Positions 4,581 to 24,121 of a stretch of DNA of 30,763 nt are shown one piece after another (the first letter of the stretch is position 1; each line of letters opens with the position of its first letter). The position numbers and the translations under genes are program-made. Where the stretch lies: the IMG/VR virus record IMGVR_UViG_3300030098_003049, positions 1 to 30,763 of that record; one strand, 5' to 3'. The stretch is from a virus. The notes below the pieces were generated by a model. That model had not been told where the DNA came from. It made no database searches and saw only the letters and a program-made list of their open reading frames with translations.

Positions 4581-4885
4581 TGAACAAAAGTAAGGCGAAA
4601 GGGAATAGATTTGAAAGAGAAATAGTAGATGCCGTTGAATTGCACGAAGTTAAATGTGTTCGTGCTTGGGGGAGCAACGGCAGAGCATTAGGTTGTCACG
4701 AAGAAGTAGATATTTTAATTGATGATGATATTAAGGTTCAGGCGAAAGTTAGAAAGGCTTTGCCGAAATGGATTAAACCCTCTGTAGAAGTAGATATACA
4801 AGTAATTAAAGAGGATAGAGGAAAGATTTATGTAGTACAAGAATTGAATGATTGGTTAGTTAATTTAAAGGAGAAAAAATGTTAA
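4580..4885 (+). CDS. Holliday junction resolvase-like nuclease (PD-(D/E)XK)
   Basis: The 101-residue protein has the order of archaeal-type Hjc-like resolvases found in phages. KGNRFEREIVDAV (E12/E14), VRAWGSNGRALGCHEEVDILI (D44) and VQAKVRKALPKWI (Q54-x-K56) give the E...D...(E/Q)xK active site. Such enzymes cut four-way junctions or process branched DNA during recombination and before packaging. Q replaces the usual E of the ExK motif, which also occurs in active relatives of this superfamily. Its neighbours (annealing protein, NinB-like protein, HNH protein) fit a recombination role. It overlaps the next gene by seven bases. Confidence 0.75.
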   Translation: MNKSKAKGNRFEREIVDAVELHEVKCVRAWGSNGRALGCHEEVDILIDDDIKVQAKVRKALPKWIKPSVEVDIQVIKEDRGKIYVVQELNDWLVNLKEKKC

Positions 4886-5691
4886 TTTATAAAGCTACTA
4901 ACATACAAAATAATAAAGTATATTTTTGTATTACCTCAAGAAAATTAAATGATGCAATTTCTATACAAAAATCTACAGCAAGAAAACAAGAAAAAAAAAT
5001 GAAATTTAAAAATGCATATAAAAGCAAAAGCCCATTTCATAATGCATTAAATAAATATGGTGAACATAATTTTTATTATGAAATAATTGATAAAAATTTA
5101 CACAAAAAAGATGCTTTTAAATTAAAAGAGAAACTTATAAAAGAATATAAAGCAAACAATCCAAAGTATGGTTATAATTGCACTACAGGTGGTTATTATT
5201 TTAAAAATAACAAAGAAACTATTGAAAAACAAAGCGAATCTAATAAAGGTAAAAAACTGCCTCAATATATGATAGATATGTTAAAACAAAGAGTAGGAGA
5301 AAAACATCCTTGTTATGGATATAAACATACTGAAGAAACAAAAAGAAAGATGAGTGAAGCACAAAAAAATTCAGATTATGTACAAACAGAAGAAATTAAG
5401 AAAAGAAAAAGCGAAACTATGAAGGCTCATTGGAAAAATCCAACAGAAAAAATGTTAAAAGACCTTTACAATAGAAAACATCAAATAGGCTCAAGAGATA
5501 TAAGAGGACAAAAGAATCCTATGTATGGAAAGGGTATGAAAGGCAAAGATAATCCAATGTATGGTAAAAAAGGTAAATTACACCCATCATATGGAGTACC
5601 TCTATCAAAAGAGAGGTTTGAAAAGTTGCAAAAAGGTAGAGAGAAATATCAAGCAAAAATAAAGAAACAAAAATTAGAAAGAAAAATTTAA
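4879..5691 (+). CDS. GIY-YIG homing endonuclease-like protein with NUMOD3 repeats, degenerate motif
   Basis: The N-terminus (residues 2-17) reads LIYKATN...NKVYFC, a GIY-YIG domain in which both motif glycines are altered (GIY to LIY, YIG to YFC). The conserved Arg (R21), a helix with E84/E89 and the closing GYNCTTGG (98-105) remain. Two NUMOD3-type DNA-binding segments follow (about 139-165, and 209-245 with repeated NPMYGK), then a basic tail. This is the layout of free-standing phage homing endonucleases such as the I-TevI and Seg types, which cut DNA and spread their own gene. The motif changes may weaken cleavage. No intron is seen around it. Confidence 0.75.
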   Translation: MLIYKATNIQNNKVYFCITSRKLNDAISIQKSTARKQEKKMKFKNAYKSKSPFHNALNKYGEHNFYYEIIDKNLHKKDAFKLKEKLIKEYKANNPKYGYNCTTGGYYFKNNKETIEKQSESNKGKKLPQYMIDMLKQRVGEKHPCYGYKHTEETKRKMSEAQKNSDYVQTEEIKKRKSETMKAHWKNPTEKMLKDLYNRKHQIGSRDIRGQKNPMYGKGMKGKDNPMYGKKGKLHPSYGVPLSKERFEKLQKGREKYQAKIKKQKLERKI

Positions 5692-5777: not shown

Positions 5778-6221
5778 ATGATTTATTTAGTTAATGCTGA
5801 AAATACAGATTTATACAAAATTGGTTACACATCTGTTGGTGCTGAAACTAGATTGAAAGCATTACAAACAGGAAGTCCACATAAACTTAAAATTATTAAA
5901 CAAAGTGATGGTAGCATTTCAAAAGAAAAGTATATACAAAATTGGTTTTATTACAAAAAAACACGAGGCGAGTGGTTTCAGTTTAATGATGATGATGTTA
6001 AGAATGTTATTGATATGATGTTAGACAAAAAAAAGTATTTAACAGAAAGTAAAATTAAAACAAAGTTATTATCATTTAGAACAAGCATTAACAATGACCA
6101 ATATTTAAGAAAATTAATGGAAAGTGATGAACGAAGTATGTCATTCATTATTTCTAAAATGATTGAATTTTTTAGGAAAAAAGGTATTGTTGATTTTAGA
6201 GAAATAAAGGAAATTATATGA
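5778..6221 (+). CDS. T5orf172/Mug113-type GIY-YIG protein with C-terminal ribbon-helix-helix-like region
   Basis: Residues 1-70 match the T5orf172 branch of the GIY-YIG superfamily: MIYLVNAENTDLYKIGYTS, R25 in ETRLKALQTGSP, E50 in the helix and the closing GEWF (64-67). This branch is found in phage and bacterial nucleases. The C-terminal part (about 97-137) reads LLSFRTSINNDQYLRKL then RSMSFIISKMIEFFRKKG, like a ribbon-helix-helix DNA-binding fold. The combination suggests a sequence-targeted nuclease or a regulator. It follows element B with SD GGAGAA. The N-terminal call is good; the RHH call is tentative. Confidence 0.7.
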   Translation: MIYLVNAENTDLYKIGYTSVGAETRLKALQTGSPHKLKIIKQSDGSISKEKYIQNWFYYKKTRGEWFQFNDDDVKNVIDMMLDKKKYLTESKIKTKLLSFRTSINNDQYLRKLMESDERSMSFIISKMIEFFRKKGIVDFREIKEII

Positions 6222-8639: not shown

Positions 8640-9220
8640 TAATATCCTCCTGTACTGCCATCAACCATTGTATAGGTTCTTGTTGTTCTACGTCTTTTTT
8701 TAATTTTTTCTTTTTCTACCTTTGGTAAATTATAGTCAGGTAAATGATAACGAGTTCTTTTAACCTTTCCAAATCTTTTTGTACTTTTATAGTCTTCCCA
8801 ATTTGATGAACCTTTATGAAATTCAAATTCCTGAAGATTGAAATCTGGTAAGTTATCTCCATCTTTAACATATATATCAACAGGTTTTGCTTCCTCGTTA
8901 CCAGCAATAACTTTATTAATATCTATATTACCTTTATAAGTAAATAATAATTGTTCATTTATTGGATTTGTTCCTAATGTAAACATAACCATCCTTGAGC
9001 CGCTTCCTTGCATAACCCACCCCTCTGGAAGTTGTGGCGTTATTTCTGCTTTTCCTGAAAATTCTAATTGAATCCCCATAATATTTATATGTGAATTTAA
9101 AAAACACGAACCATTATCAGTTTCTATAGTTGGAGGAGATATATTTTTTCCACTTGAACTTGAAACACCTTTAATTTTTTTGTTTCTAAATATTTGTTTT
9201 TTAAGTAGGGCTTGCTTCAT
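8639..9220 (-). CDS. Tail-associated protein, unknown family, 193 aa
   Basis: I chose ATG 9220 because AGGGGGGAG lies just before it; the upstream in-frame ATGs (to 9244) have no SD. The N-terminus is basic (MKQALLKKQIFRNKK), the middle has beta-like segments (INIMGIQLEFSGKAEI, SRMVMFTLGTN), and the C-terminal third is strongly basic (KVEKEKIKKRRRTTR). It lies between the two tail-tip genes, overlaps the upstream one by 20 bases and the downstream by one, and so is probably a tail-tip partner or assembly factor. No family is recognised. Confidence 0.5.
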   Translation of the reverse strand: MKQALLKKQIFRNKKIKGVSSSSGKNISPPTIETDNGSCFLNSHINIMGIQLEFSGKAEITPQLPEGWVMQGSGSRMVMFTLGTNPINEQLLFTYKGNIDINKVIAGNEEAKPVDIYVKDGDNLPDFNLQEFEFHKGSSNWEDYKSTKRFGKVKRTRYHLPDYNLPKVEKEKIKKRRRTTRTYTMVDGSTGGY

Positions 9221-12200
9221 CTTCTCCCCCCTCATCTTCATCATTACTGTTTACGATTTGGTTTACTAACATTACTATATCTAAAAGATTAACAGTACCA
9301 TCACCATTCATATCCGCTGTATCAGGTAAATGTTCTGTATTATTATAAGCGACTGCACCTGCCATTATTACAACATCTAAAGCATTAATACTACCATCAT
9401 CATTTAAATCACCTAAAAGAGGTGGTGGTGGAGTAAAATAAAGTTGTGTGAAATATAAGTCTTTAGTATATTCTGTTCCTTGATATGTTATTCTTAAAAT
9501 ACCAATAATTCCTGTATGGCCTTCAGGTATTAAATACGGAGTAGATAAATAAACTTTTCCACCCTTTCTAATTCCGTTTTCAAAATTATAATGTGTAGAA
9601 TAGCTAAAATAATTGTTAGCAGATTGCTCTTGACCTTCTTGTACTTCTTGCATAACTTGTGGCGGTTGACTATCTCCATATTCAAAAGGTTCTTCATTGA
9701 GTATAACCAATACGTCAACATCAAATTCACCTTCTATATTTGTTGAAATAATAGCAGTAGGACTATGATTTAAATTATCATTACCATTTTCCCAATAAAC
9801 ATCAATATATGGTTCATCTGAAAAATCTTCTTGCCAACCTGAAGTGTCTGTGCCCTCATCTATATCGGTACCATAGTCATAAGGGTCTCCTTGTTCAAAA
9901 TTTGCATCACCATTGTTGCCACCAAAAGAAGGAGTGCCAGACTCTTCTGTTTCTTCTACATCCCAACCATCATAAAAACCAAAATAACCTCTATGGACCT
10001 GTACTGCTTCAATATCAACTCTATCTAAACTTTTTCTTACATTTGTAACAAAGAAATATTTGTATATTAATTGACCATTTCTATTAGTGTTTTTAGTATA
10101 ATCATAACCAAAAGCCTTTACATTACCTAAAAGTTCATCAAAATAAATATAATCACCAACTTCTAGGTTCAAATAGTCTATAGATAGTTTTAATTTAATA
10201 ATTAAATGTTGATTAGCGTACCAATGTAATAATCTTTCTTGTAATTTTCTCGCTTCTGTTAAATCTCTTATATATTCTGATTCTACTTCTAATTTTGCCT
10301 CTTCATTTGTTAATCCGTAATAACCAATATCATAAACAAAACTATCATCATTTGGATACATTAACTGAGTAGCCTCATCGTAAGTTTCAACATTAATATT
10401 CCCATCAGAATTTGTAAAACCATAACCTGTTTGCCCATCAAAATCCCCTGTTCCATAATTTATATTATATTTTACATTTATTGAATTTTTAACATCATCT
10501 ATTTTAGTTAATGAAAAAGAATAATTTAAAACTTTTGAATTATCTAATTTTACTCTATCTATTGATTCTATAGTATTACTGTTAAATTCTTGGAATAAAT
10601 GCAAAAATTTGAAATGACCTTTTGCATTAAATGTTGGTATAGTTAATGATGACTTAAACAATTTTTCCATAACATCTTTAGCTTCTTTTGTTTCGTTTAA
10701 TGTAAACGCATTTAAAATTCTATCTGTTGCATTAGAATGTTCAATATTACCAATATAGCCGAGTTCTGTTCTTAAAATATCAGCCATTATATCTTCTGCT
10801 GATTGTATAACAAGAGGTAAGTCTCCAATTATATAAACTTCTACACCTTCGTAAAATTCAGGATGTGCGGAGGCATTACTTTTTCTAAAAGTCATTCTTT
10901 TTTCTGTATCTGTCTCTTGAGTATAATGAATTTCGTGATAACCAAAATCAGTGTCGTCACTACCATATACCGAAACTATATTACCAATATTAAATGAAGA
11001 TACTTCTGGATATTCTACTTTATCAAACGTTACATTATAATAAGTTCCTGAACTACCACTAACATCGGCTGTACACACTCCATATATATTAATATCTACA
11101 GTATCTGAAATTCTTCCAGCAACATCAGCAAAATAAGACTCACTTACAGCTTCAGTTACTACAGTATCCTGTAAACAATAAAAATTAAAAAGTTGCCCAC
11201 AATAATATCCTCTATCATTAGTGCCGCTACTTCCTACTCTGTGCATTTGAGGTACACCCAAAGTTACCCCAGAAAGTTTAGTTGTTTCATCAACATAAGT
11301 TGACTCGTAATAAGTTGAAACATCGTGAGTAATTGTTTCTTCTGTACTTGATTGATAAGGAGCTACATCGTAATTTACAGACCAAACAGTATCATCATCT
11401 TGAGGGAATATAGGCCATTCGTGAGGAGTGCTACTATATTCTGGGTTTATTATATCTCTAGCTCTATTAGACGCTGTGCTTTTTAATCCTGAACCCCAAT
11501 CTGCATTAGGTGTAGAACCAAAATGCCAAATCATTGGTAACATTCTTTTTCCAGTATCAGTCATATTATGAAAACTATGATAATCCATATCATAAACATA
11601 CTTTGTTGAACAAGGGTAATTCCCAACATTTGATTTAAAATTAAAAATAACTTTAGTCCAACCAGAATGGTCTAGTTCTTCAAGGTTTACAGCGGTTAAT
11701 AATAAACCTCTATCACTATAACCGTCTTGAAGTCTATTTACAGGGAAGAAGCCACGAGTGTTATCTTTATGTATCCAGTTGTTATCTATAAAAGTAGAAT
11801 CTCCTCCGTGATTTGTATGATTGCAATCAGTTGGTTCCCACCAACTTTGGTCGCCATTATCCCAATTATCATCATAAGGAGAATCTTCACTTGCACTTGT
11901 AATAAAAGCATATCTATTCCAAGGTTCGTAACCAGACTGCCCATCTCTAACGTAATCTGTAAATCCGTATATTCTATGGGTACTATTAAATGAACCTCCA
12001 TTTGAATCACTATAGGTTTTAAACTCAACTTTTTCAATAGGTCTGTAAATTCTTGTAGGTATACCTATTATTTCTTCATCTTGAACAAATGTATTAGGAT
12101 TAATTACTATAGAAGCTGAAGAATCTTCACCTGAGGACTGCACAAAAGAATATAAATCCTCAGTTAAATCTATCTCAAGGTCTTTATAACTCCAACCTCT

Positions 12201-13031
12201 AACATCAAGTGTTCTACTAATAGGTACAAATGAATCGTTTTGGAATATAGATAATGACCCTACGTTTTTTAAATAATTATGAGTAAACAAAGGATGATTT
12301 TCATTAAAAAAAGAATGACCATAAGCATCTATATTTACAGAATCCATCAACCCTCCAATTAAGGCTCCTTTTTTATCAATGTGTAATTCTTCTAGGCTTT
12401 GACTTATATTACCTTCTTCATTTGTTCCCTCAGAACGTGGTATTAATGGAGATTTATTAACATAACCATAAACCATAGGATATGGTTTTCCAACCATATT
12501 TTCGCTATAATAAGGTTCATTAGGTATACTTTGTGAAGGTAAAGTATTTTGTAAAAGTTGTTGTGTTAAATCTTCTAATGTTAGATTAACAGTATCTTGA
12601 TTTTGGTTAAATCTTCTAATTGTTCCTGTATAAACCAATAAACAATCATTTATACTATCTATTCCATTTGACGTATAATATATTTGACATACTGAATTTA
12701 AATAATCTTGAATTTTATCACTAAATCTTTCTCCTTGAAATTCTGCGTTAGATACAGAAAGAGACACACTTGAAATAGTATATTTATTATCTACAATATC
12801 TGCTTTTGATGCTATATTAGGAGATTTTAATAATAAAGGTTTATAATAATCAACATCACCCTCTTCATTAATTATACTAAATTCTTTAGTTGACAATGTA
12901 ATTACTTCACTTGCTAATGAGTAATCATCATCTTCTAACCTTATGTCTTTATAAATTTTAACTAAAGGGTTTAATGATGTTCTTACTCCATCACCTAATG
13001 CCATTTTAAACTTTGGAGGTAATTCTATCAT
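9201..13031 (-). CDS. Large tail-tip/baseplate hub protein with C-terminal dockerin repeats
   Basis: The 1276-residue protein follows the tape measure gene, the usual place of tail hub or tip proteins. The N-terminal 170 residues (KIYKDIRLEDDDY, TISSVSLSVSNAEFQGERFSD, VNLTLEDLTQQLLQNTLP) look like a hub domain. Residues near 960-1060 (LKLSIDYLNLEVGDYIYF and RVDIEAVQV) resemble the central gpJ-like tail-tip region. After a PPPP linker (about 1201-1205) come two dockerin-type calcium loops, D1208-x-N-x-D1212-G...D1219 and D1240-x-N-x-D1244-G...D1251, then an acidic tail. It probably forms the tail tip, contacts the cell and guides DNA release. Dockerin domains normally bind cohesins; whether they do so here is unknown. 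Confidence 0.68.
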   Translation of the reverse strand: MIELPPKFKMALGDGVRTSLNPLVKIYKDIRLEDDDYSLASEVITLSTKEFSIINEEGDVDYYKPLLLKSPNIASKADIVDNKYTISSVSLSVSNAEFQGERFSDKIQDYLNSVCQIYYTSNGIDSINDCLLVYTGTIRRFNQNQDTVNLTLEDLTQQLLQNTLPSQSIPNEPYYSENMVGKPYPMVYGYVNKSPLIPRSEGTNEEGNISQSLEELHIDKKGALIGGLMDSVNIDAYGHSFFNENHPLFTHNYLKNVGSLSIFQNDSFVPISRTLDVRGWSYKDLEIDLTEDLYSFVQSSGEDSSASIVINPNTFVQDEEIIGIPTRIYRPIEKVEFKTYSDSNGGSFNSTHRIYGFTDYVRDGQSGYEPWNRYAFITSASEDSPYDDNWDNGDQSWWEPTDCNHTNHGGDSTFIDNNWIHKDNTRGFFPVNRLQDGYSDRGLLLTAVNLEELDHSGWTKVIFNFKSNVGNYPCSTKYVYDMDYHSFHNMTDTGKRMLPMIWHFGSTPNADWGSGLKSTASNRARDIINPEYSSTPHEWPIFPQDDDTVWSVNYDVAPYQSSTEETITHDVSTYYESTYVDETTKLSGVTLGVPQMHRVGSSGTNDRGYYCGQLFNFYCLQDTVVTEAVSESYFADVAGRISDTVDINIYGVCTADVSGSSGTYYNVTFDKVEYPEVSSFNIGNIVSVYGSDDTDFGYHEIHYTQETDTEKRMTFRKSNASAHPEFYEGVEVYIIGDLPLVIQSAEDIMADILRTELGYIGNIEHSNATDRILNAFTLNETKEAKDVMEKLFKSSLTIPTFNAKGHFKFLHLFQEFNSNTIESIDRVKLDNSKVLNYSFSLTKIDDVKNSINVKYNINYGTGDFDGQTGYGFTNSDGNINVETYDEATQLMYPNDDSFVYDIGYYGLTNEEAKLEVESEYIRDLTEARKLQERLLHWYANQHLIIKLKLSIDYLNLEVGDYIYFDELLGNVKAFGYDYTKNTNRNGQLIYKYFFVTNVRKSLDRVDIEAVQVHRGYFGFYDGWDVEETEESGTPSFGGNNGDANFEQGDPYDYGTDIDEGTDTSGWQEDFSDEPYIDVYWENGNDNLNHSPTAIISTNIEGEFDVDVLVILNEEPFEYGDSQPPQVMQEVQEGQEQSANNYFSYSTHYNFENGIRKGGKVYLSTPYLIPEGHTGIIGILRITYQGTEYTKDLYFTQLYFTPPPPLLGDLNDDGSINALDVVIMAGAVAYNNTEHLPDTADMNGDGTVNLLDIVMLVNQIVNSNDEDEGGEDEASPT
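9204..9416 (-). other. Dockerin type I domain within the tail-tip protein
   Basis: This segment encodes residues 1206-1276 of the large tail protein. It has two 12-residue loops of the D-x-N-x-D-G-x-I/V-N-x-x-D pattern (DLNDDGSINALD and DMNGDGTVNLLD), each followed by a hydrophobic helix (VVIMAGAVAYN and IVMLVNQIVN), 32 residues apart. This is the paired F-hand layout of type I dockerins and allied calcium modules. The loops have all expected Asp/Asn ligands. It is followed by a run of Asp and Glu. Confidence 0.8.
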
Positions 13032-15424
13032 TAACTCATACCAAAATTGCCACCTCTACGGACAGCTTCTTTAATTGATTCTGCAAGTTCTCCCTCAACA
13101 AAATCTTGCGTCATAACATTACCTGTTACATTTACAACAACACCCCCAGTAGAACCAGTTTCATTCATTTCATTTAAGGTTTCTAAACCTATTGAATCTA
13201 CAGCGTCTCTTCTTAAAATAAACTCACCACGTTCAGCCTCTATCATAGTGCCTCCTTGAAAGTGACGTTTTCCTCCAATATATCCACCTAATTCTGCCTG
13301 TAAGCCAGTTTGGGCATTTTGTGCTTTCATATTATCTATTTGTTCTTGTATTTTCATTACTTGAGCAGCACCTAATAATGAAAGTCTTATCATCTCCACT
13401 GGGTTATTAAGAGCTTTTGTTACAGCTTCTATAGTATTAACTATAGCCATACCCTGTTGGATTCGTGCCGCTACTATTGCTGTCTTTTTATTAGCAGCAA
13501 ATACAGCACCTGCAGCACTTACAGTGTCCTTAGCTAGTTGCCATTTTTGTTTTCCAGTCATTTTATCTAAAGCTATAACCCCCCTATTTGCTTCCATTTC
13601 TTTCTTTATTGTTGCAATTAATCTTTCTTTTTGAACAATCTTTTCAATAATTAATTGAACTTCGGTCTCATCCCCTGATGCTAAAGCTCCTTGCAATTCT
13701 ACATTATCTTCTAAAACTGCTAATAATTCACCATTATTAGTAATTACACCAGCTTGTACAGCTTCAAATATTCCTGAATCTTTTATAAAACCATCAAAAA
13801 AGTCACTACTAAAACCAGTAGCATCTATAAAATCTTGTTTAAATTTTTCATTAGCTGGTGCGTTTCTTTCTACAGCGGCATTATACTCGTCTAAAGCCTC
13901 AGCTGCATCTTTATATTTTGTATTATTTAATATATGAGAAGTATCTAAAAGCACTTCTTTATATCTTTGGTGAGCTGAAATAGCGGCATCGACATCATCT
14001 GTGTATCCCAAAGTTGCTTGGTCAGCTTTATCTAATTTATCAGCAGCCTCATTATAAGTAGCAGCCAAATCAAGAGTATCCTGAGAAAGCTCTTTAACTA
14101 TAGGCGGTAGTGTGAGCTCATTAAGTGCACCAATAAAATCTTTGTCAAAACTAGCTGCTGTAAATCTTAATAAGGCATTTCCTTCTTTTAATTTGTCGTG
14201 AAACTTTGTTAATTGAGTAACACCATTATCAAGGTCCATTTTTTTAATAGAGCCTTTATATTTATCTAAAGCCTTGTTAGCACCCTCAGTTTCTTCTTCT
14301 GTCGCTTCAAACCAACCCATCCATTCCATAAGAGCTACACCAGCAGTTCCTATAGCTAAAATTATAGCACCAATACCACCTGTGCTTGTAACTAAGGCTT
14401 TTCCAAAAACTTTTAATGAACCTGCTGCACCTATTGCAGCAGTTCCTGTTGCTTTAAGAGCAGCTGCGTGAGCTGTTGCAAAAGCGGTAGCTATAGCAGT
14501 CTTAGTTCTAAGTACGACTACACCAGCTTGCCACAAAGCCAAAGCTGTTGTTGCTGAAATAACAAATTCTACAAATTTTCTAATTGGTGCACCTTCTAAT
14601 TGTTTATTCCATTTTGTAAAAGTTTTTATAATTGGATTAAGACCTGTAGATAAAGTCTCACCTAAAGATTCTTGTAAATCACCCATACCATTTTGGAATT
14701 TAACTAATTCAGAGGCTGACATTTGTCCTAATAATTTTGCTAATCCACCGTATTTAGATTGGCTTTGAGCTAAGATTTGTTGAATTTTTTGTTCTTTAGA
14801 GGCTGAAGCATCAATCATAATACCATATCTTGATAATGCGTTTGTTGAAGAGCCAAATGATTTAGCAACTAATAACGCAGCAGAATTAAGGTCCATACCT
14901 TGACCTTCAGCTAAATCTAATGTTGCAGTTGCTAATTGTTTAGTTTGTTCAATATTTGCACCATAAGCACCAAATTGTGACATCATACTATTAATATGCT
15001 CATCACCAAATCTTGTTACTTGTTGTAGTGAGCTTGAATATGTATCTAAGGCTTGTGCTCCGCTAGAGCCAAATTGTAACCCTAATCTTGCAACACTTTC
15101 TTCTTGTTTTCCAAATGAAGCAATATTTTTTGCTACTGCCGCTGATACTAAACCCATACCAAAAGAAACAAGTAATAATTTAGAACGCATAGTAGCTAAA
15201 GAGTTATTTAATAACCTACCTTTATTTGTAATGTCAGCAAAACCATCTCCAACACCTTTATTTCCTATTGTAGTCTTTTTTAACTCAGTATTTAATTTTT
15301 TAAATTGTGCAGTAGCTTTTCTTGCTCTTGTTGTGGTTTGTTCTTGTAAAGTTTTTAATTGTTTTAGTGTTTGGATTAAATTCTGGTCATCCGCCCTAAA
15401 CTTTATAATAATATCATCAGCCAT
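13031..15424 (-). CDS. Tape measure protein
   Basis: The 797-residue protein sits straight after the tail chaperone pair and starts with a long coiled-coil (about 14-50, TLKQLKTLQEQTTTRARKATAQFKKL in parts). It has two hydrophobic stretches (about 81-97 LLLVSFGMGLVSAAVAK and 350-371 GIGAIILAIGTAGVALMEWM) separated by Ala/Gln-rich helices. These are the features of tape measure proteins, which set tail length and leave the tail first during DNA injection. By the usual 0.15 nm per residue the tail would be about 120 nm, fitting a siphovirus. It overlaps the next gene by one base (TAATG-type). Confidence 0.9.
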   Translation of the reverse strand: MADDIIIKFRADDQNLIQTLKQLKTLQEQTTTRARKATAQFKKLNTELKKTTIGNKGVGDGFADITNKGRLLNNSLATMRSKLLLVSFGMGLVSAAVAKNIASFGKQEESVARLGLQFGSSGAQALDTYSSSLQQVTRFGDEHINSMMSQFGAYGANIEQTKQLATATLDLAEGQGMDLNSAALLVAKSFGSSTNALSRYGIMIDASASKEQKIQQILAQSQSKYGGLAKLLGQMSASELVKFQNGMGDLQESLGETLSTGLNPIIKTFTKWNKQLEGAPIRKFVEFVISATTALALWQAGVVVLRTKTAIATAFATAHAAALKATGTAAIGAAGSLKVFGKALVTSTGGIGAIILAIGTAGVALMEWMGWFEATEEETEGANKALDKYKGSIKKMDLDNGVTQLTKFHDKLKEGNALLRFTAASFDKDFIGALNELTLPPIVKELSQDTLDLAATYNEAADKLDKADQATLGYTDDVDAAISAHQRYKEVLLDTSHILNNTKYKDAAEALDEYNAAVERNAPANEKFKQDFIDATGFSSDFFDGFIKDSGIFEAVQAGVITNNGELLAVLEDNVELQGALASGDETEVQLIIEKIVQKERLIATIKKEMEANRGVIALDKMTGKQKWQLAKDTVSAAGAVFAANKKTAIVAARIQQGMAIVNTIEAVTKALNNPVEMIRLSLLGAAQVMKIQEQIDNMKAQNAQTGLQAELGGYIGGKRHFQGGTMIEAERGEFILRRDAVDSIGLETLNEMNETGSTGGVVVNVTGNVMTQDFVEGELAESIKEAVRRGGNFGMS

Positions 15425-15880
15425 CTATTTCGCCTCATTTTTAACTTTATCGTACATATCTTTTTCCTTCTTGGCTAAAGCGTGTTTAATTATAAAAAAA
15501 TATTCTATCCATTTAGCAGGTTGTTCACCATAAGAACCTTTATAAGCAGGAGTTCCTGTTTCAATGGAATAAACATACCTATTTATAAGTTTGGTATATT
15601 TTTTGTCTCTTATGTGATTAAAGCAAGTAAAAAAAGGAATCTGAGCTTTTACGTTACTCGTTATATCAAATTCATTTCCTTGAACTTTATTCAATTCAAT
15701 AGTTTCTTCTATAATTAAATCTATTACCGACCAAATATCTTCTTTTGATTTAAATTCTCTTATCTCATAATTACCATTTACTTTTACAGGTAATTGTGCT
15801 TTATAAGGAAATTCACAATATTGGCAGCCTCCACAGCTTTCAGACAATATAGTCAGTTCTACTTGGAGGCTTTCTCTTCC
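15425..15880 (-). CDS. Downstream half of tail assembly chaperone (made by -1 frameshift)
   Basis: This frame has no ATG at its head; the first possible start is a TTG at 15847 without a good SD. It is open upstream to 15904, in the -1 frame of the preceding gene, so it is probably read as a C-terminal extension (GT-like) of that protein. The shifted segment adds GRESLQVELTIL before SESCGGCQYCEFPYK. It has a Cys motif C-x2-C-x2-C at the front, and the rest is helical and Lys-rich. In lambda-type tails the frameshifted product binds the tape measure and tail tube proteins. With the upstream half it would be about 238 residues. If TTG were used alone, 140 residues would be made. Confidence 0.65.
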   Translation of the reverse strand, partial: GRESLQVELTILSESCGGCQYCEFPYKAQLPVKVNGNYEIREFKSKEDIWSVIDLIIEETIELNKVQGNEFDITSNVKAQIPFFTCFNHIRDKKYTKLINRYVYSIETGTPAYKGSYGEQPAKWIEYFFIIKHALAKKEKDMYDKVKNEAK

Positions 15881-15904
15881 CCCACAAGATAAAAATTCTG
15901 CATT
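15818..15904 (-). promoter_or_regulatory. Predicted programmed -1 frameshift site with stem-loop or pseudoknot
   Basis: On the - strand mRNA the two frames overlap between 15904 and 15861. In that window is GTG GGG GAA (five Gs at 15883-15879), which allows the P-site GGG tRNA to re-pair after slipping back one base. Five bases beyond the GAA codon, AGCCTCCA (15871-15864) pairs perfectly with TGGAGGCT (15833-15826). The loop segment ATATTG (15850-15845) can pair with CAATAT (15823-15818), giving an H-type pseudoknot. Spacing matches known -1 stimulators. The slippery heptamer is not the canonical X-XXY-YYZ, so efficiency is uncertain. Confidence 0.6.
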
Positions 15905-16140
15905 TTAGTAAATATTTCAATCTTATCTTGTAGTGTTAAGGTTTTTAAAAATTCATCAGATGTATCGCCATCAACACCTAAACGAATCCATTTTGTCATT
16001 GTAGAGTGCATCATTTTTACCCCAGCAACATCACCTTTTTCCGTATAATCGTATTGAACCGCATCGAACATTTCATCTCTATCATCTATAGATACATCCT
16101 TTAACTTAATTTTCTTTCCAGATTTAAGTTTGAATTCCAT
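15859..16140 (-). CDS. Tail assembly chaperone, upstream half (G-like)
   Basis: The 93-residue protein is mostly charged, and starts MEFKLKSGKKIKLKDVSIDDRDEMFDAV (in parts), a beta strand pair then helices. This is the usual start of siphovirus tail chaperones (lambda gpG-like), which keep the tape measure soluble during tail assembly. It lies just before the tape measure gene and after the major tail gene, as in other siphoviruses. Near its end a slippery G-run lets some ribosomes move to the -1 frame and add the downstream 151 residues. Confidence 0.7.
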   Translation of the reverse strand: MEFKLKSGKKIKLKDVSIDDRDEMFDAVQYDYTEKGDVAGVKMMHSTMTKWIRLGVDGDTSDEFLKTLTLQDKIEIFTKMQNFYLVGEEKASK

Positions 16141-16303: not shown

Positions 16304-17404
16304 TTATGCTGCGTTATCGCCACCTAATAAGTGTAAAGTATTTCCTGATGAAGGAGCTAATACTTTAGCTTCAAAATTCACCATAGCCACATCATCACTT
16401 GAAACTTCACAAGATGTTAATTTAGCTTTTCCTGCCCATATTCCAAATTTTCCTGTTGAACTTGCACCAAAAAATACACCTGTAGGTGTTTCTGTGGTTC
16501 CAGCAACTGCAACATCTGCCATATATAATGTTAAATATGAATCTTCTGCCGCATCTCTAAAAGCCTCAACCATTTGGTCTGTTTCATTATCGTATTTAAC
16601 AGAACCTCCATAAGTAATAGAAAGCTCAGGCAATGCTTTTGCCCATACTTCAGGCTCTCCGTTTGCTCCTGTTGCTCCTAAAAATTGAGTAGGACAATCG
16701 ATAGCAAAATTAAATGTTTTAAATAATGGAGTTATATCATCTTGTGAAGCTGTTCCTTTAACATCTATATTTCTTTGGCTTAAATTACTTAAATATAAGA
16801 AATTTGTACCAATAGCAGCATTGTCTGTCATTGTAACCGCACCTTTTGTTGGTGTAGATTGTGTTTGGAATGTAGCAGTATAGTTAAATCTTCCTGCCGC
16901 ACTATCCATATCAGCATCTATTGAAAAGTTTGTACAAGTACAACTTTTTAAAGAATATGAATCTGCTGCTGTTGGAGCTTGAAAATATACTGATAACAAA
17001 TAAGCGAAATCAGTTGCTCCACTTGGGTCATCGCCCACTTTAAAATTAAGCCCTTGATAACTACCAAGTGTTAAAACACTATCACTACCTGTTCCACCGT
17101 CAAATTCGTCTCCTGTTGCACTTTCGCACATCATAACCCACATTTCTTGTGTTAATCTACCTGATAAGGTAAATTCTGTTACTACTCTTTTTGTTGATGA
17201 AAATATTTGGTCAAATTCAGCTATTCTGCTTGAACCTGTTCTCATCTCAAACTCTTGTTGTGGATTAAATGGAGGTAGTGTAATACCTTCCACATCCACT
17301 CTGTGATAATTCGCATCATCATTATTAAATGTTCCTGTAGTAGTTTCTACTGCTAAATATACAGAAAACTGCTTACCTGAATAAGTTGTACTATTTAATG
17401 CCAT
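16304..17404 (-). CDS. Major tail (tube) protein
   Basis: The 366-residue protein sits before the chaperone/tape measure genes and after the tail terminator candidate, the normal place of the tube protein. It is beta-rich and Thr/Ser-rich, with GKQFSVYLAVETTTG at the start, GITLPPFNPQQEFEMRTGSSR near 40 (in parts), TEFTLSGRLTQEMW, FSIDADMDSAAGRFNYTATFQTQ and a C-terminal CEVSSDDVAMVNFEAKVLA. The paired strands around FEAKVLA fit a tube protein of the phage tail/T6SS Hcp fold group. SD AAGGAGG lies next to a hairpin in the leader. Confidence 0.72.
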   Translation of the reverse strand: MALNSTTYSGKQFSVYLAVETTTGTFNNDDANYHRVDVEGITLPPFNPQQEFEMRTGSSRIAEFDQIFSSTKRVVTEFTLSGRLTQEMWVMMCESATGDEFDGGTGSDSVLTLGSYQGLNFKVGDDPSGATDFAYLLSVYFQAPTAADSYSLKSCTCTNFSIDADMDSAAGRFNYTATFQTQSTPTKGAVTMTDNAAIGTNFLYLSNLSQRNIDVKGTASQDDITPLFKTFNFAIDCPTQFLGATGANGEPEVWAKALPELSITYGGSVKYDNETDQMVEAFRDAAEDSYLTLYMADVAVAGTTETPTGVFFGASSTGKFGIWAGKAKLTSCEVSSDDVAMVNFEAKVLAPSSGNTLHLLGGDNAA

Positions 17405-23560: not shown

Positions 23561-23718
23561 TATTTAATCTCGCTTTTAATCTTTTTAATTTGATATAAAA
23601 AGTAAGCAATAAGAACAACCATATAGCCTAATTCAATTACTGGACTAAAAACATCTATCCATTGAACTATATAACCACTTAACCCAAGTCCACCAGCCTT
23701 TAAACTTTCAACGTCCAA
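23560..23718 (-). CDS. Small single-span membrane protein, holin candidate, 52 aa
   Basis: It starts at TTG 23718 behind AGAGGTAGAG and overlaps the lysozyme gene by 11 bases. It ends in TAGTG overlap with the phosphoesterase gene. The sequence begins MDVESLKAGGLGLSGY and has one predicted membrane span (about residues 27-43, IELGYMVVLIAYFLYQI) followed by a basic tail (KKIKSEIK). A membrane protein fused so tightly to an endolysin gene suggests a holin, pinholin or spanin-like job. The open frame has no ATG start, which lowers confidence. Confidence 0.5.
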   Translation of the reverse strand: MDVESLKAGGLGLSGYIVQWIDVFSPVIELGYMVVLIAYFLYQIKKIKSEIK

Positions 23719-24121
23719 ACTCTACCTCTTTTACTCTATTACTTAATTCTTTTGCTCTATTAGGTGTTTGTTTCGCCCAAAGGCTATCAAGCATTTCTAC
23801 TGAAGCATCGTGAAATTGCTGATTTTGTAAATAGGCTATTGTTTTTTTAAACTTAGAAAACCCACCTACACCTAATTGATAACACATCTCCATAACAACA
23901 TCTTTAATCTCTTGTGGCATATAACCATACCATTTAAACTTAATCTTAATCATATCGTGTAAGGCTTTAAGTTTACGCTCAAGAATGATGTCGCATATAT
24001 CTGCATCTAATTCTAAATCTTTAATGGCGAAGCCGTAGCCTATAGTATCAATACCTAAACTATCTTTATAAACTACACCAACATAGCCTTCGTGTTTCTT
24101 AATACTCTCTATTAAACTCAT
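23708..24121 (-). CDS. GH24 lysozyme (T4-type endolysin)
   Basis: The 137-residue protein has the E-x8-D-x5-T triad of T4-type lysozymes: E11 in KHEGYV, D20 in YKDSLG, and T26 in DTIGYG. Later helices with MEMCYQLGVGGFSKFKKTIAYLQ and AKQTPNRAKEL (in parts) match the family's C-terminal lobe. There is no signal peptide or SAR membrane anchor, so it would need a holin for access to the peptidoglycan. It cuts the sugar backbone of the cell wall for release of new virions. It begins one base after the preceding gene stop. Confidence 0.92.
   Translation of the reverse strand: MSLIESIKKHEGYVGVVYKDSLGIDTIGYGFAIKDLELDADICDIILERKLKALHDMIKIKFKWYGYMPQEIKDVVMEMCYQLGVGGFSKFKKTIAYLQNQQFHDASVEMLDSLWAKQTPNRAKELSNRVKEVEFGR

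Follow-up and report, generated by a model that had tools for sequence, protein, structure and literature searches.

The window, i.e., the whole stretch of 30,763 nucleotides that was analysed, is a virus record with a G+C content of 31.6%. Its tail genes lie on the minus strand, where a probable tail tube gene is followed by a small, putative G-like tail assembly chaperone ORF, a second frame that overlaps the end of this ORF in -1, and a long tape-measure-like ORF (Table 1). The -1 frame ends one base before the tape-measure-like ORF, and a long ORF stands directly after the -1 frame in nearly every relative sampled (in some it is cut by the end of the locus). No family match in Pfam, PHROGs or NCBIfam was found for the tape-measure-like ORF or the probable tube protein. 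An earlier description made from the letters of this DNA (the sequence-only reading) had proposed a downstream frame that has no ATG, is open only from 15904 and overlaps the upstream gene, and we see the same: from 15904 onward the window shows no ATG in the -1 frame ahead of the conserved domain, the sole start-like codon early in this frame being a TTG at 15847, at which no Shine-Dalgarno (SD)-like sequence was found. All positions that it gave hold, the G-run, the spacer, stem 1 and both parts of stem 2 are where it described them, and its 238-residue product is recovered when the length of the fusion of the 0 frame with the -1 frame is recomputed (238 aa).

Several other ORFs of the window carry recognizable domains. 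A 1276-aa tail-region protein (9201-13031, minus strand) has a C-terminal dockerin type I domain (PF00404, E 1e-9, residues 1206-1259), which is unusual in a phage tail-region gene. Two adjoining ORFs on the plus strand (4879-5691 and 5778-6221), one with a NUMOD3 motif and one with MUG113/T5orf172 (GIY-YIG-like) domains, are possible homing endonucleases, and the phage lysozyme at 23708-24121 on the minus strand (PF00959) is probably the endolysin.

Table 1. Features of the tail chaperone junction and its neighbours in the window.
Feature	Position	Strand	Remarks
Probable major tail (tube) protein	16304..17404	-	366 aa; upstream; identity from position alone
Upstream G-like tail assembly chaperone ORF (putative), 0 frame	15859..16140	-	93 aa; stop TAG 15861-15859
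-1 frame extension (putative T-like domain)	15425..15904	-	opens after TAA, first codon 15904; would be translated after the slip from 15883 on
Candidate slippery site G_GGG_GAA	15877..15883	-	0-frame codons GGG GAA; -1 codons GGG GGA
Spacer GAGAA	15872..15876	-	5 nt from slippery site to hairpin; mostly 3-6 nt in relatives
Stem 1, 5' arm AGCCTCCA	15864..15871	-	perfect 8 bp with 3' arm
Stem 1, 3' arm TGGAGGCT	15826..15833	-	pairs with AGCCTCCA across a 30-nt loop
Proposed stem 2, 5' part ATATTG	15845..15850	-	in hairpin loop; present in window, not conserved
Proposed stem 2, 3' part CAATAT	15818..15823	-	present in window, not conserved
Tape-measure-like ORF	13031..15424	-	797 aa; directly downstream; identity from position, length and composition

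Relatives were collected by scanning IMG/VR twice (24 and 73 loci, the latter by a direct search for the -1 frame extension), and removal of the loci without the junction left 92 entries, the window included (some contigs were found by both scans). Among these, 63 junction entries are distinct when compared over 74-75 nt from the G-run, and two main groups were analysed for stem 1, a close group of 36 sequences and a distant group of 26; for the proteins, 69 distinct upstream and 78 distinct downstream homologues were aligned. Judging from the metagenome sources of the relatives, we read the phage group as marine. A tblastn comparison with annotated phages, for which the queries were the two halves and two distant members of the downstream family, gave no useful match to a cultured relative, no cellular hosts or prophages were found in two scans of genome contigs, and there was no match in Rfam.

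The -1 downstream frame overlaps the upstream gene in all 92 loci, and in every one of them an in-frame GGG preceded by G lies in the overlap, where the window reads GTG GGG GAA. The sequence-only reading had named the lack of the G-run in relatives as a contrary outcome; in the loci that carry the junction, the arrangement of the run is kept throughout. Among the distinct sequences, 62 of the 63 have GGGGGAR, the lone variant (L092:3022-3028) being GGGGAAG (0-frame GGG AAG TAG) with an 11-bp hairpin still present. This constancy is not a matter of codon usage, because GGG accounts for only 80 of the 739 glycine codons (11%) elsewhere in the junction genes. Most members of the distant group have the 0-frame stop right after the slippery codons (GGG GAR TAG), so that their short product would end exactly at the slip; the short product of the close group extends about six codons past it. 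GGGGGAR does not fit the canonical X_XXY_YYZ heptamer, which is usual, not universal, among -1 programmed frameshift sites, and its second codon re-pairs only through a G.U pair.

The reading frame under selection changes at the same place. In 23 close relatives, the 50 codons just ahead of the G-run give a pN/pS of 0.32 when read in the 0 frame and 1.60 when read in -1; between the G-run and the conserved cysteines, the values are 0.32 for the -1 frame and 0.87 for the 0 frame. Purifying selection thus acts on the 0 frame ahead of the G-run and on the -1 frame after it. Because the run is conserved in 92 loci, the selected frame switches at it and the genes lie where, judging from their presumed neighbours, such a pair would be expected, a -1 frameshift at the five Gs between the halves of a tail chaperone is strongly supported, as the sequence-only reading had proposed. 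We put the probability at roughly 0.9 that this is -1 programmed frameshifting between lambda G/GT-type tail assembly chaperone halves, with a simple hairpin as the stimulator.

The perfect 8-bp stem that had been noted five bases past the G-run (stem 1) is present, and the covariation looked for in relatives is borne out. When synonymous codons of the -1 frame were resampled with the protein kept, the stem of the window was stronger than expected (p about 0.015; folding z -3.1), and the same holds at p<=0.05 in 54 of the 63 sequences (mean folding z -3.2), a count that overstates the number of separate trials, the sequences being related and not independent. The base pairs that differ between lineages are a stronger argument than such counts. 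In the close group, stem 1 is paired in 95% of cells, with a G-C/C-G swap; its covariation score was reached by 0 of 500 shuffles, and sliding the partner collapses the pairing. The distant group has a 12-pair version (AUCCCUCACAUU/AGUGUGAGGGGU) with 88% of cells paired, well above the slid controls, although it includes many G.U alternatives and its double changes are only modest. Since the register of the 3' arm differs by one base from one group to the other, they were counted apart and covariation was not pooled over the 63 sequences. A natural test of the hairpin is provided by two relatives (L040 and L041, junctions at about 3001 and 1081, respectively), in which the 3' arm has been relocated about 10 nt upstream and the stem is rebuilt as AAGCCTCAGAC/GTTTGAGGCTT (11 bp, 16-nt loop). 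The clearest exceptions are four relatives in which stem 1 is weak or absent (L066, L073, L080 and L089). The hairpin is kept while its base pairs change in compensating ways, its register slides and, in one case, its 3' arm is relocated. The spacer, 5 nt in the window and mostly 4-6 nt in relatives, compares with about 5-9 nt as usual for stimulatory structures, and the spacing and conservation support a role of the hairpin as the frameshift stimulator.

In the sequence-only reading the stimulator was an H-type pseudoknot, in which ATATTG in the loop of stem 1 pairs with CAATAT downstream (stem 2). The two parts are perfectly complementary in the window and about ten relatives, and a predicted H-type pseudoknot has been reported next to GGGGGAA in corynephage phi16 (PMC5506516). 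All 6 bp are kept only in these close relatives, which are nearly identical there, and the region encodes Ile-Leu and Gln-Tyr. Over the 36 relatives, stem 2 is paired in 70.8% of cells, compared with 69.9% for shuffled and 71.8% for +3-slid pairings; 19 of the 36 lack its weakest pair, and stem 2 taken alone shows no covariation above shuffle level; the best loop-to-downstream pairing varies from sequence to sequence. The geometry is also poor, with 11 nt between the stems and 2 nt to cross the 8-bp stem 1. With pairing and covariation at shuffle level and an unfavourable geometry, the H-type pseudoknot was rejected as a feature of the family, and it is an improbable stimulator of the frameshift; it might still play a part in the lineage of the window alone.

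A different pairing was preferred over stem 1 by RNAalifold in the close relatives alone, namely that of the G-run with CCUCC, which is beyond the covariation test because it hardly varies and which would be prevented by a ribosome that occupies the slippery site. One could imagine the conserved CCUCC arm as a two-way switch that pairs either with the slippery GGGGG or with the downstream GGAGG, in which case the spacing of successive ribosomes would set the ratio of short to long chaperone; we regard this as a long shot.

A rival reading without any frameshift takes the downstream frame as a gene of its own, which starts at the TTG at 15847 or at another internal start and is perhaps translationally coupled. 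It would agree with the TTG or ATG found at this codon position in many close relatives, and with an ATG at +62 that follows a GAGG-like sequence in many members of the distant group. However, in 35 of the 63 distinct sequences the stretch of the -1 frame from its opening to the conserved CxxC contains neither ATG nor GTG nor TTG, so that independent initiation cannot be the route of the family. The ATG at +62 comes only after the CxxC and lacks conservation, no SD-like sequence precedes the earlier starts in the census of the 63 sequences, and the invariant G-run and the -1 selection upstream of the start would be left unexplained. The good ATG with an SD sequence that the sequence-only reading had named as a contrary outcome was not found ahead of the CxxC in this census, and we consider a separate gene very unlikely. 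Just after the CxxC, many but not all members of the distant group (e.g., L061:1794-1870) have GAGGGG-TGT-ATG, which resembles a ribosome-binding site with a start codon, and internal initiation of a shortened T-domain is possible there.

Slippage of the RNA polymerase on the G-run, which would yield mixed mRNAs, fits a conserved core that is a homopolymer run; but five Gs are short for efficient transcriptional slippage, which is usual on longer A or T runs, and the fixed codon phase and a hairpin at ribosomal spacing are not needed by this model, which leaves it with very little probability. The single frame break between the halves of one apparent functional unit could also suggest that one gene was broken by an error of sequencing or assembly, or by an indel that made it a pseudogene; this was rejected and has a negligible probability, the identical break occurring at the G-run in 92 concordant contig loci with purifying selection on both frames.

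The two halves of the predicted frameshift product were also examined as proteins. Neither had a convincing match in Pfam, PHROGs or NCBIfam; of the 78 downstream proteins, 8 hit PHROG 9001 ("tail assembly chaperone") weakly, with E values of about 0.01. AlphaFold2 gave confident models, with a pLDDT of 90 for the upstream product and 92 for the downstream domain. For the upstream model, the only PDB chain at Z>=2 was the HK97 tail assembly chaperone 2OB9, a weak match (Z 3.4, rmsd 4.7 over 80 residues, 6% sequence identity), and its weaker matches to viral models repeatedly include annotated tail assembly chaperones; the similarity to 2OB9, weak as it is, agrees with and points to the family predicted by genomic position. 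The downstream domain has the conserved motifs CxxC, PFFxC and GSYGEQPxxW, and in the 78-protein alignment C17, C20 and C87 are invariant and perhaps form a metal site. Its model had no PDB match above Z 4 and no match to a known fold, and no convincing sequence match was found for it.

Frameshifting of the lambda type in tail chaperone genes is widespread in tailed phages, and the junction very probably works along the same lines. Most ribosomes would end at the TAG and release the 93-residue G-like protein. A minority would pause at G_GGG_GAA when the entry channel is obstructed by the hairpin that begins 5 nt further on, and we infer that these slip back by one base: the tRNA-Gly in the P site could re-pair fully, GGG on GGG, and the tRNA-Glu in the A site could move from GAA to GGA via a central G.U pair. 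The shifted ribosomes would continue in the -1 frame and produce the 238-residue GT-like fusion. By analogy with lambda (reviewed in PMC5009743), the common short form would coat the tape-measure protein and the rare fusion would recruit the tail tube protein. Two protein families that are unnamed in Pfam, PHROGs and NCBIfam thereby receive a probable function, where gene callers would otherwise give a short orphan and a truncated ORF.

The arrangement resembles lambda G/GT in that a -1 shift close to the end of a short chaperone gene would give two products with a common N-terminus, and in its place, with the presumed tail tube gene on one side and the tape-measure-like gene on the other. Lambda slips on G_GGA_AAG, whereas here the site is G_GGG_GAR with a conserved hairpin, and no sequence similarity was detected; HK97 gave the best structural match of the upstream product (2OB9, see above). 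The sequence-only reading had called both the slippery site and the pseudoknot unusual. For the site this stands insofar as it departs from X_XXY_YYZ; yet GGGGGAA recurs in the tail chaperones of actinobacteriophages (PMC10885494, PMC5506516), and a predicted pseudoknot has been described as well, so that both elements have precedent. GGGGGAA was the sole form taken by the "fivetwo" motif of PRFect among about a thousand SEA-PHAGES cases, and the PRFect authors proposed G.U re-pairing for it (PMC10885494). Our sites share the heptamer and the kind of gene with these actinobacteriophage sites and differ from them in that they belong to metagenome viruses (31.6% G+C in the window) with unrelated proteins and a documented covariation of the hairpin. 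The tail assembly genes of corynephage phi16 combine GGGGGAA with a predicted H-type pseudoknot, and an internal SD (GAGG) was proposed for them (PMC5506516); the heptamer and a predicted downstream RNA structure are common to both systems, while our phages have no evident SD-like sequence directly ahead of the site and conserve the hairpin but not a pseudoknot. GGGGGAR, known until now mainly from annotations of G+C-rich actinophages, is thus supported, by a deep comparative test, as a frameshift site that is evolutionarily maintained, with a covarying hairpin adjoining it, in unrelated A+T-rich uncultured phages.
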